Both the position numbers and the translations under genes were made by a program. From contig CP136065.1 in NCBI GenBank assembly GCA_032622095.1, positions 220,142,151-220,206,150 of the forward strand: DNA of 64,000 nt. The letters are read 5' to 3'. Of this stretch, positions 1,660 through 64,000 are shown one piece after another; position 1 is the first letter of the stretch; each line of letters starts with the position of its first letter. Under the pieces are notes generated by a model. That model had not been told where the DNA came from and did no database searches. It was given only the letters and a program-made list of their open reading frames with translations. The DNA comes from Siphonodentalium dalli. Taxonomy: Eukaryota > Mollusca > Scaphopoda > Gadilida > Siphonodentaliidae.

Positions 1660-3020
1660 CTATACATCCATTTTTAGCTCAACTTTACTTTGTAAAGTTT
1701 GAGCTATTGCCATGGCTTTGTCGTCCGTCGTCCGTGTGTGCGTGTGTACGTAACGCCTCAACAATAGAGGCTACAGGTCGTACCTTTGATCGGATCATTA
1801 TGAAATTTGTCATAGCTGTTGACATCAACATTTGTACCGGAATGATTCATTTTGGGGTCATACGGAAAAAAAACATGGCCGCCAGCGGCCATCTTAGATT
1901 TCAAAGTTCAATCCATTAGCACGGGCTACAGGCCGTACTGTTCGTCTGATCGTCATGAAATTTGTCATGGATGTTAATATTGACATGTAGATGGGAACGA
2001 GTAATTTTGGGGTCATTCGGCCAAAAAACATGGCCGCCAACAGCCATCTTCGATTTTACTCTTTGCATGACTAAATCCTTTAGCACGGGCTACAGGTCGT
2101 ACCTTTAGTCAGATCGTCATAAAATTTGACATGGATGTTAACAATGACATGTAGATGGGAACGAGTCATTTTTGGGTTATTCGGGCAAAAAACATGGCCG
2201 CCAGCAGCCATCTTGGATTTTACTCTTTGTATGACTAAATCCTTTAGCACGGGCTACAGGTCGTACCTTTAGTCTGATAATCATGAAATTTATCATGGCT
2301 GTTGAAATTGAAATGTAGATGGGAACGAGTCATTTTGGGGTCATTCGGACAAAAAACATGGCCGCCAGTGGCCATCTTTGTTTTCAAAATTCAATCCATT
2401 AGCACGGGCCACAGGTCGCACTGTTCGTCTGATCGTCATGAAATTTGTCATGGATGTTAATATTGACATGTAGATGGGAACGAGTAATTTTGGGGTCATT
2501 CGGCCCAAAAACATGGCCGCCAGCAGCCATCTTGGATTTTACTCTTTGTATGACTAAATTCTTTAGCACGGGCTACAGGTGGTACCTTTAGTCTGATCAT
2601 CATCAAATTTGTCATGGATGTTAACAATGACATGTAGATTGGAACGAGTCATTTTGGGGTCAATCGGCAAAAACACATGGCCGCCAGCAGCCGTCTTGGA
2701 TTTTACTCTTTGCATGACTAAATCCTTTAGCACGGGCTACAGGTCCTACTTTTAGTCTGATCATCATAAAATTTGTCAAGAATGTTAATAATGACATGTA
2801 GATGGGAACGAGTCATTTTGGGGTCATTCGGCCAAAAAACATGGCCGTCAGCAGCCATCTTGGATTTTACTCTTTGTATGACTAAATCCTTTAGCACGGG
2901 CTACAGGTCGTATCTTTAGTCTGATCATTATAAAATTTGTCATGGCTGTTGATATTGGAATGTAGATGGGAACGAGTCATTTTGGGGTCATTCGGACAAA
3001 AAACATGGCCGCCAGCGGCC
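1660..3020. repeat. Tandem array of 155-bp and 164-bp units, BIV160/pearl-like
   Basis: The unit landmark AGCACGGGCTACAGG starts at 1918, 2082, 2246, 2401, 2565, 2729 and 2893, with a degenerate first unit from about 1763. Steps are 155, 164, 164, 155, 164, 164 and 164. The short type ends TTCAAAATTCAATCCATT and the long type ends ACTCTTTGYATGACTAAATCC. All carry ACATGGCCGCCAGCAGCCAT followed by CTTGGATTTT. A TTTAGCTCAACTTTACTTTG leader and a CGTCCGTCGTCCGTGTGTG microsatellite-like stretch precede the array at about 1672-1750. That layout (leader, TGTCCGTC stretch, ~160-bp core repeats) resembles non-autonomous Helitron 'pearl' elements and BIV160-type satellites of bivalves; this link is from memory of the layout, not from a search. 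The array runs into the assembly gap, so its copy number is unknown. Confidence 0.85.
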
Positions 3021-3120
3021 NNNNNNNNNNNNNNNNNNNNNNNNNNNNNNNNNNNNNNNNNNNNNNNNNNNNNNNNNNNNNNNNNNNNNNNNNNNNNNNN
3101 NNNNNNNNNNNNNNNNNNNN
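3021..3120. other. Assembly gap (100 N)
   Basis: Exactly 100 N, the usual placeholder for a gap of unknown size. It separates the tandem array on the left from a LINE fragment on the right. Reading frames that cross it are not real. Confidence 0.99.
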
Positions 3121-3534
3121 GCATTGACAGAAAAAATGGTAAGCTGATTCAGTTTCAAAACTACCGCATTGACACAGTGGTGATTCTTTCAAGTGATTAA
3201 TAACAAGGTCACGGTTCATGTTGCTGCAACCTAATCTGATACGAGTATGATATATTTGGGCTTTCCTGGAATAACACTGAAGATAAAAATTTGCAATTTT
3301 CGCACGGTCAATGTTTAGTTTACGCTTAAATTCTTCGAGTGTGTTTGACGATTTTATTGAATTCGATAAACTATTCCATGATCGTGCAGCCGAAGGCAGA
3401 AAAGTATTCATGTAAATGTCTCTGTTGCTGCCAGGCGGGTGGATACTAACATGCCTAAAATTGTAACCAGATGAAGTGGAATCGGGAGGAATCATGTTTG
3501 ATAGATAAGACGGAGCTTGGTTACTAGTCTCTTT
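3121..3534 (-). pseudogene. C-terminal piece of a LINE reverse transcriptase (ORF2)
   Basis: On the minus strand an open frame from a TGA at about 3535-3537 down to the gap reads through the classic post-RT part of Jockey/CR1-like LINE ORF2. It has 'APSYLSNMIPPDSTSSGYNF', then 'FLPSAARSWNSLSNSIKSS', 'FKRKLN', 'RIRLGCSNMNRDL' and a closing 'CQCGSFETESAYHFFCQC' zinc-finger-like tail. Such tails follow the reverse transcriptase in many invertebrate LINEs. The RT core is not next to it: a stop cuts the frame at the 5' side and the gap cuts the 3' side. It is a truncated relic rather than a host gene. Confidence 0.8.
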
Positions 3535-31356: not shown

Positions 31357-31365
31357 TATATATAA
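31357..31365 (+). promoter_or_regulatory. TATA box upstream of signal-peptide exon
   Basis: TATATATAA sits inside a GC-rich frame (GCCGCGCGG..CCCCGCG). The expected start of transcription is about 31387-31397. Two short upstream ORFs (ATGACAGAC.. and ATGGTTAGA..) lie between it and the ATG at 31489. Confidence 0.4.
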
Positions 31366-31488: not shown

Positions 31489-31549
31489 ATGTTTTCGCTA
31501 TTGTTTTCATCGTTTCTCCTATTGACATTTGCCGAGCTGGTAATTACAG
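31489..31549 (+). CDS. Candidate first coding exon: signal peptide
   Basis: ATG at 31489 opens 'MFSLLFSSFLLLTFAELVIT', a short hydrophobic signal-peptide-like segment, followed by one base (G) and a consensus donor GTAAGT at 31550. The phase-1 exit is typical of secreted multidomain proteins and fits the phase-1 entry of the IgGFc-like exon at 63659, with which the split codon becomes GAC (Asp). That link would need a ~32-kb intron packed with transposons. The exon is too short for an ORF search and has no homology to prove it. A TATA box lies 124 bp upstream. Confidence 0.45.
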
Positions 31550-50929: not shown

Positions 50930-51639
50930 TACACTTATTAACTGACTGGGATAATCCATTTAATATATGAAGGGTTAATGGGCAGATCAGCGATGGCGAT
51001 GCTAGTTCTATTCAAGATTCAAGTTCAATGTTAATGGATGATAACATGTCATCTATATTAACTCGTTCTACATTAAATGTATTCTCCCATTCAGTCATAA
51101 AAGTATACATTGGAATGGTCTATTATTCATCTGGAGGGGTGTTCGTGAAATATGAGCAGAAGACAGACAAGAGTAGTATAAAAAGGACTAATTTGAGCAA
51201 GCGTGACAGTTGCGAGGTCGGTAGTTCCTACCTGTAGTTGCGTGTCTTTAAGCCACCAATAAAACGGACATCTCGTGGGGATAAACTGACGATAAACTAT
51301 AATCAATCAACCATTGTATTAAATCAGTCCATGGCTGTATTCATATATCGTGTGGGTATCTTAGATTATAAACCAGGGAGTCTGTAAACTGCGCAAGCAC
51401 GATGCATGAAAATAGTTCCTGATTCATGGGTCGCGCCTCCTGGAAATAAAAAAAAATCATGTCCGTTATTGCCCACTCCAGCAGATTGAAAATATGACGT
51501 GTTTTCAAACCTAAACTGACTTTGCCCTTCGTTCTTCTGATGCGCATCACATCTAACCGTATAAGTACGATTTATGGGCGGTTGCATACATCCAGCTCTT
51601 ATTACGCCCTATACTAAGGGTGTTTACTGCTATGCTGAT
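50930..51639. other. No gene seen
   Basis: A 69-codon frame at 51028-51237 and overlapping minus frames at 51341-51587 lack splice context or domains. Confidence 0.4.
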
Positions 51640-53330: not shown

Positions 53331-55056
53331 ATTTTGTGTTTGAACTTTAATAACAATAAAAAAAAAATTTAAATAATAAAAAAAAATTGACACTTTCATT
53401 TATTTTAGTTTTATACGATTAATTAGGTGTGAATCCGTGTGATATCCTGTTTTGAAAATATGAAGATTTTATTGCAATAGTTTCATGTAATATAATGATA
53501 TCAATAAATTACCATGTAATCCAACATCCAGAGTATATCAGAGGATTTTTATAGATGTTGTCATTCCAAGTGAAATCTGTTATGAAATGAGTGATGACAT
53601 ATGATACAGAGCTCTGGTGGGTCAAGCAAGATAAACAACACTGGTGGCTGGCTGTTTGTTTATTCTAACTGTCAAATTGATTAATGGCAGCACAAGACAG
53701 GTGTTTTTCCTATTCTTGAAATTTCATTACAGGATGAGATGAGGGCCCCCTCACCTATATAAGTGTCTTCTAAATTCCATTAATTTGCTTCAAAAATAAT
53801 TAACCCTTTCCAAGGTTTCCATAGACACATGCTATAATGTACATGGACTCTTCCTCATATCTCTTAATATATATTGGGTATCTTTGCACACTTCTATCAA
53901 TTTTGGTATTGACTGATTAATTGATTTTTGAAAAATATATTAACCCTTCAGACACGTGCTTTCAAAATTAAAACAACAGCTGATAGCCAATTTGATTTAT
54001 CTATGCAATGGGGAAACAGGCAGATAAATATACATGACTATTGTAAGTGATGACTTGTTTTGAAAATCAATATGGTAGATGTTAGTATTTCCAGGAACCT
54101 TATTTTCCCATTTGTTCACATTTTCATGGTTGATTGAATTTTAGGGGCCACAGAGCACTTAGAAGATTAACATTGAAGGTTGTGGCTTTAGTGCCCAAGC
54201 TACTTGTAAAACATTGTAATGTGTGAAACCATTCAAATGAGGGCTAACTTACTTTCTTTTATATGAACGATTTAGTGGTCATCCCCATCATATTATGTCT
54301 GTATAACATTATATAGATAATACTTTTGAATTGTATAAACTACATATATTTTTGAAAAACATACACCCCTGTTATGAAACACTTAATCTTATTTAATACA
54401 CAGGTCAGATCTGATCTTATATCTGTCCATGTTTGATAAACAAATAACTGGGGAGAATGCGGGACGGGGGGGGGGGGGGGTAATTAAAGTACCATTTAAA
54501 TACGAGATGGAATCCCCTACATATATGGCGTTCTAAGCAGTCTGGCTTGTCAACAATTATAATTTCTCTTTAGAAGTGAATAATAAATTTTGAATATCTG
54601 GCATGTCAAAAGTGGCAAAGATAGGGATTTATCACTTTTGCTTCCAATGAATTAACTTAAACTCCTAAACATGTCCTCCGAAATCACTAAACCATTGGAT
54701 CTCACAGTGAGAGGTCCTTGTGTGAATAGGGACAGAGTTATGAGATTTAAAACTACTCCTCCCCCAACCCAAATACTTTAACCCTTTCTTAAGACAAATT
54801 ATTTGAGCTTTTGATTTCAAGTTGGGTACTCATATATGGATTAATTCCTGTGATCATATCTTTGACAAATTATCAGTTATGGCTAGTCACTATCGCCAAG
54901 GTATGGGTTAAACATCTGCCGATCGTGATCGGCCTCTCGTTAATTTAGTTTCTCTGTATCCCCAAATTGGCAGACGACACATTGCATAATCGAGGTTCCC
55001 AATGGGTGTATATCACAATATTCACCATTTGGGAAATTCAAGCTGTGTCTATGTCT
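53331..55056. other. No gene seen
   Basis: AT-rich, with a 15-nt G run at 54466-54480. No exon or repeat of note was recognised. Confidence 0.45.
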
Positions 55057-63514: not shown

Positions 63515-63658
63515 TTAAAGTGAGGTTTGAATATATATAATAATGTTCCATTACTTGACATGTTTCAGTCACAGTATATTATCCAATATATTTCGAGAGT
63601 GGGGATTCAATAATGCGTTGTCCACATGAGAATTCAAACATTTGTATTTTATTTTCAG

Positions 63659-64000
63659 ACCCTCCGCAAAAACAACGCTATTCGATTGGGTTCCTCAGAC
63701 AAATATACAACGAGGACTTCAGCGTATATGTGTTCCCAAGCAAGAACTCCAAAGTCAACGTCAGCTATCCATCAGATGCGGATATTATTTCAAAACATTA
63801 CGACATCAAACATGGGCGGTTGGAAGAGTTCGCTATACCAAGCAGTTTGCAAGTTGAACACAATACGGGGGTACAAAGAAAGGCACTTCACCTGGAAGCA
63901 CCATCGCCTGTAGATGTGGTTGTGTTCGCTAACAATGCTGATTTCAGTGATGGTTTCGCGGCATTTCCTTTAACCACCGGTTGTGCGTGTCACCATTTGG
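63659..64000 (+). CDS. Exon of an IgGFc-binding-protein-like secreted or surface protein (partial)
   Basis: The acceptor TTTGTATTTTATTTTCAG ends at 63658. From there (phase 1; first two bases AC) the frame is open to the window end: 'PPQKQRYSIGFLRQIYNEDF', 'SVYVFPSKNSKVNVSYPSDA', 'DIISKHYDIKHGRLEEFAIP', 'SSLQVEHNTGVQRKALHLEA' and 'PSPVDVVVFANNADFSDGFA'. The layout ('..Y.iGF' strand, 'VnVsyP', 'g.leefaiPssl', 'kaLhleA..pVdVvvFanN..fsDGFaafP') is that of the IgGFc_binding N-terminal domain (PF17517 type), seen in mucus proteins such as FCGBP and many invertebrate secreted proteins. The exon has no internal ATG in this frame, so ATG-based searches miss it. A short signal-peptide exon with matching phase is at 31489-31549. 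The end 'PLTTGCACHHL' departs from the family's usual 'P...lG..Y'. The family call is from pattern only. Confidence 0.7.

Follow-up and report, generated by a model that had tools for sequence, protein, structure and literature searches.

The window analysed here is the whole stretch of 64,000 nucleotides C5:220142151-220206150, taken from a 2.23-Gb genome assembly in nine contigs. At its right edge lies the beginning of an exon with similarity to IgGFc-binding proteins, which continues into the neighbouring DNA. A candidate first exon was found 32 kb upstream. The features of this gene, in window coordinates unless residues are given, are as follows.

31357 to 31365, plus strand: TATA-box-like TATATATAA, 132 nt ahead of the first-exon ATG, identical in the second copy of the gene; its promoter function is presumed.
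31489 to 31549, plus strand: predicted first coding exon, encoding MFSLLFSSFLLLTFAELVIT and the first base of the codon that follows, with a candidate signal peptide and a phase-1 donor CAG/GTAAGT (scan, simulation and genome match).
31550 to 63658, plus strand: predicted phase-1 intron of 32.1 kb (27.3 kb in the second copy), which may hold further exons.
63613 to 63615, plus strand: in-frame ATG upstream of the acceptor, an alternative unspliced start judged unlikely.
63641 to 63658, plus strand: splice acceptor consisting of a T-rich tract and AG; a phase-1 acceptor is comparably placed in 33 of 40 paralogs.
63659 to 64000, plus strand: first 342 nt of the last exon, corresponding to the N-terminal conserved part of IgGFc_binding proteins (open frame, PF17517, paralog profile and alignment).
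Residues 571 to 591 (approximately) of the 608-residue protein: transmembrane helix predicted from hydropathy.

The AG at positions 63657-63658 is preceded by a T-rich tract in which 12 of 15 bases are pyrimidines. Read in whole codons from 63661, the sequence contains neither a stop nor a methionine up to the window edge; the alternative frames carry two stops (from 63659) and four stops (from 63660). Since the frame without stops has its whole codons from 63661, a junction at 63658/63659 must be of phase 1, as far as the sequence can tell. Beyond base 64000 the frame runs open for another 1,424 nt until it meets a stop that corresponds to window 65422-65424. The earlier, sequence-only reading of this DNA had described a 342-nt open frame directly behind an acceptor, running off the right edge, and had named in-frame stops just beyond base 64000 as a reason to abandon it. 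Our analysis confirmed both the frame and its continuation, and such stops do not occur. The statement that there is no in-frame ATG holds for the exon itself but not for the whole open frame, which begins, from stop to stop, at 63559 and contains an ATG at 63613, 46 nt ahead of the exon; that the exon would be invisible to ORF searches was thus overstated.

The openness of the frame alone is unremarkable, because the six frames of the window contain 22 stop-free segments of at least 113 amino acids and 7 of at least 147 (the frame from 63559 counted). Acceptor-like sites of at least equal strength number 48 on both strands, and only the one at 63658 leads into a 342-nt open frame. In addition, a profile of the corresponding region from 40 paralogs, from which the window gene and its second copy were excluded although both were present in the alignment used for column cutting, matched a single one of the 1,303 stop-free window segments of at least 30 residues, namely the IgGFc frame (E=2e-10).

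The 587-residue product of the full exon matches PF17517 with E=2.7e-48 and 165.2 bits (cut-off 25.6), spanning residues 109-396 of the exon product and positions 12-297 of the 297 of the model; for the second copy the match has E=1.8e-48. The 113-residue fragment visible in the window gave no meaningful match in Pfam, only an unrelated weak one to VEG (E=0.33), because the PF17517 match begins at residue 109. The visible part almost wholly precedes this match and is common to the aligned paralogs (n=14 in the alignment). The HMM comparison with PF17517 that the earlier reading had proposed therefore fails on the fragment and succeeds on the full exon, which supports the IgGFc-binding-like identity; what had been recognised is the conserved part that precedes the Pfam model. 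When the last exon was searched up to its stop, PF17517 was the only family found, the next one being Adeno_E3_CR2 (E=0.1, 12.8 bits, below its cut-off of 36), and neither von Willebrand D nor C8 or TIL repeats were detected there. By its sequence, the gene is a divergent new member of the known IgGFc_binding domain family (PF17517, IPR035234). It shares with this family the near full-length domain, an N-terminal part as in the 40 paralogs and the acceptor phase of 33 of these 40, and differs from it by its divergence and by the presence of a stalk, a predicted transmembrane helix and a tail behind the domain.

In detail, the domain is followed by 181 further residues. An Asp- and Ser-rich stalk, about 137 residues long and containing a unit of about 22 residues three times, leads to a strongly hydrophobic segment (19-residue hydropathy of 2.85 at residue 573, compared with a best value of 1.11 elsewhere, signal peptide aside) and a basic C-terminal end of 16 residues. 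All eight N-glycosylation sequons and seven of the eight cysteines are located ahead of the predicted helix, which fits an extracellular ectodomain. The tail contains YSKL (YIKL in the second copy), which we take to resemble a YxxPhi-type sorting motif, and ends with TAL, presumably similar to a PDZ-binding motif; short motifs of both kinds can occur by chance. A tail motif of the YxxPhi type could permit internalisation.

Sequence matches to solved structures, mostly GABARAP-family chains, reached at best E=0.019 for the fragment and 0.38 for the full exon and were treated as chance, and the profile A1 had no match among solved structures. Modelled without an alignment, the window fragment reached a mean pLDDT of 61 with seven strands and had no Foldseek match in the PDB at E<=0.001. 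The best rows, with E values of about 0.005-0.06, included carbohydrate-binding modules of Ruminococcus flavefaciens amid unrelated folds, and the model was considered too weak for them to count. A search for bacterial relatives yielded eight stretches that fitted the pattern, none of which was confirmed.

As for the surroundings of the gene, five other long open frames of the window showed no Pfam family at E<=0.01. A molluscan haemocyanin domain had no match, a negative that carries no weight. An open frame at 2977-3534 on the minus strand, broken by a 100-base N gap at 3021-3120, appears similar to the terminal part of a LINE reverse transcriptase protein. At 54001-54941 there is a repeat of about 0.94 kb, 95-100% identical among the 37 full-length matches listed and found on all nine contigs; a 10-kb query containing it returned 35,841 first-look candidates, and it is perhaps a recently active high-copy element. 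In the DNA to the right of the window (L001), inverted repeats resembling those of a miniature transposon were seen by eye just 3' of the stop (L001:2041-2110 and about 2690-2760). A 429-residue open frame without a Pfam match lies 4.4 kb beyond the gene (L001:6412-7701, minus strand) and is possibly another gene.

The genome contains at least 107 matches to PF17517, all above the cut-off, some of them interrupted by stops. For comparison, 40 of the 107 were picked by hand, with a preference for full-length matches and with few taken from any one tight cluster; they are not a random sample. In 33 of them a phase-1 acceptor was found ahead of the shared motif, in three a phase-0 acceptor and in four none; the distance from the phase-1 acceptor to the motif is 4-31 residues in the paralogs and about 10 in the window gene. 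A protein search with its product as query listed 74 matches, and among these, the two copies aside, none exceeds 31% identity and none extends past query residue 439, hence none covers the transmembrane segment and tail. The last exon ends within five residues of the domain end in 38 of the 40 sampled paralogs, including four (L031, L039, L043 and L045) whose ends are uncertain as their final residues are unlike the usual last strand of the family. A C-terminal transmembrane segment in the frame of the domain was seen in none of the 40. As 38 of them end so close to the domain, the membrane anchor seems unusual among the family members sampled in this genome.

In a midpoint-rooted tree, the window gene and its copy sit on a long branch grouped with L042 and L043, while the nearest member by path length is L027. 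Directly after the IgGFc domain of L042 (L053, C4:203690000-203697954, first 200 nt, minus strand), a strongly hydrophobic stretch with a basic end is present in the +1 frame, perhaps through a frame change or a short intron, and is possibly a remnant of the same membrane-anchored design; nothing of this kind was seen after the domain of L043. On C6, several IgGFc matches at 28.0-28.4 Mb come back at 31.0-31.3 Mb, about 3 Mb further on, in unchanged order and with scores that are equal or nearly so; this is either a block duplication or a doubled haplotype.

We consider it probable that the exon at the window edge is the last one of an animal gene, probably of two exons, for a 608-residue type I membrane protein with an IgGFc_binding ectodomain. 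The putative signal peptide of exon 1 (31489-31549) would direct the chain into the ER, and exon 2 (from 63659 to the position corresponding to 65424) would provide the ectodomain, the stalk, one transmembrane helix and a cytosolic tail of 16 residues. The IgGFc_binding domain and the conserved part in front of it would then be displayed outside the cell on the stalk and anchored by the helix. The frame, the domain, the homology, the hydrophobic segment and an intact second copy are observed, and the splice junction, the signal peptide and the membrane insertion are predictions.

The second copy is located at C5:218650669-218652429, 1.55 Mb away. Its product likewise has 587 residues, 10 of them changed; its frame is intact and both exons are present. 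Similarity between the two places extends at least from window 8.3 kb to beyond the gene. Instead of a duplicated gene, the copy might be the second haplotype of a single locus that the assembly contains two times, an explanation that we regard as less likely. A divergence of about 2% accompanied by insertions, as observed here, is possible between alleles of a highly variable animal, and the PF17517 matches in the two C6 regions look doubled likewise. The distance of 1.55 Mb and the reach of the similarity argue against a doubled haplotype. Weak evidence in the same direction comes from two probes between the copies (219.0 and 219.7 Mb), which had no partner at a distance of 1.55 Mb, although these probes are repeat-rich, 40 candidates were scored for each, and a search of the same kind did not list the window's own place.

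For the first exon, window 30000-63658 was scanned for an ATG followed by a hydrophobic start and a phase-1 donor, which resulted in two distinct donors. With looser limits and the whole window there were four candidates on the plus strand and one on the minus strand, the best being 31489-31549. No first exon as good was present in any of 100 simulated windows (second-order Markov), with thresholds that had been fixed after the candidate was known; under a relaxed setting the simulated windows contained 0.15 candidates each, compared with two on the plus strand and none on the minus strand of the real window. The exon-1 segment has one further match found in the genome: 361 bases at 99% identity, located 27 kb ahead of the IgGFc exon of the second copy. 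This is a likely signal-peptide exon. Alternatively, the first exon of this gene might lie elsewhere, or additional exons might exist between 31549 and 63659, giving a membrane-anchored IgGFc protein with further N-terminal parts. Two observations point this way. Firstly, the 9.2-9.3 kb ahead of four paralogs yielded nothing comparable as a first exon (no candidate in two, weak ones in the other two), so first exons in this family may be distant or unlike exon 1. Secondly, exon 1 shows no conservation signal of its own, as 2 of its 61 nt differ between the copies (adjacent bases, giving L17H) and it changes no slower than its surroundings, and its start is weakened by five upstream ATGs with short frames between TATATATAA and the exon-1 ATG. 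The consensus donor, the matching phase, the good candidate signal peptide, the co-duplication with the main exon and the absence from simulated sequence speak against such a revision, and we judge it rather improbable.

An unspliced gene starting at ATG 63613 would lack a signal peptide and be tail-anchored with a cytosolic domain. This ATG is in frame within the same open frame and is kept in the second copy, but its 15 extra codons precede an acceptor that has a counterpart of like position and phase in 33 of 40 paralogs, and the eight sequons and the cysteines before the helix are like those of a secreted protein, which makes this start highly unlikely.

The two copies differ at 17 of 1,764 coding nucleotides, without any indel, corresponding to a dN of 0.0073 and a dS of 0.018. 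The resulting dN/dS of 0.40 is derived from these 17 changes, and the contrast between nonsynonymous and synonymous changes alone is not significant (Fisher p=0.074); with so few changes, selection is hard to demonstrate. Seven collinear blocks outside the coding part differ at 354 of 15,068 sites and contain 468 gap bases in addition (coding part versus blocks, Fisher p=5e-5). For this comparison the coding part was removed from one block and off-diagonal repeats were excluded, as were three more divergent stretches (51033-51212, 51212-51436 and 72416-73350), the inclusion of which would widen the contrast. A decaying pseudogene, suggested by the in-frame stops of some family members, is very improbable given that the whole frame is kept in both copies without an indel next to blocks with 31 gap bases per kb.

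The protein encoded by the probable two-exon gene can be compared with several known systems. Human FCGBP shares the name-giving domain by Pfam assignment; it is a secreted, mucin-like protein of large size and contains von Willebrand D parts (PMC11237159), which are not seen in the last exon of the window gene. The same paper names the IgGFc-binding domain itself in the PRIT proteins of frog skin glue. These resemble the window gene, with its predicted signal peptide, in the combination of signal peptide, IgGFc-binding domain and repetitive segments, but they are secreted and carry many domain copies, whereas the window gene has one domain and a predicted membrane anchor. For larval-stage "IgGFc-binding proteins" of the oyster, an adhesive or mucus role has been proposed (PMC6337334); the likeness is one of annotation name, with consecutively numbered genes, and the oyster proteins are given as extracellular, some with EGF or VWF-D parts. 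The limpet adhesive protein P-vulgata_2, BLAST-similar to IgGFc-binding protein, is given as "cell membrane" in PMC7333891, so there is some precedent for a membrane location under this name. Its domains, as given there, are vWFD, EGF, KSPI and TSP1, and the IgGFc-binding domain is not among them. Proteins annotated as "IgGFc-binding" have also been reported from the abalone shell matrix (PMC6003135) and, with negative sign and again by annotation, among the clam genes changed after LPS and PGN (PMC7430831). Among the titles and abstract openings searched, no membrane-anchored member with an IgGFc-binding domain was found, and none of the papers searched mentions the domain together with "transmembrane".

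By analogy, the product of the window gene would most likely be a type I protein of the cell surface that serves in adhesion or recognition. Proteins that share the name or the domain are reported from mucus, adhesives and secretions, and their uses there suggest adhesion to or recognition of glycan-rich surfaces, and the domain, held at the cell surface, might bind a glycan, mucin or microbial ligand. IgG is implausible as the ligand, since invertebrates, to which this animal presumably belongs, to our knowledge have none.

Beyond this single gene, we tentatively propose, at less than even confidence, a membrane-anchored branch of the IgGFc-binding-domain family, in which a single domain would sit on a repeat stalk, followed by a transmembrane helix and a short tail that may carry a sorting motif. 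The combination of domain and anchor may be common elsewhere. Gene finders can miss family members whose 61-nt signal-peptide exon sits 32 kb off. Apart from the anchor, the gene is an ordinary member of its large family. If the proposed branch is real, it would add a cell-surface receptor or tether to a family known otherwise through secreted proteins of mucus and glue. We know of hardly any functional tests of IgGFc-binding-domain proteins outside vertebrates, and a membrane-bound member, being a cell-surface molecule and not one of many mucus parts, would offer a way to ask what the IgGFc-binding domain binds.
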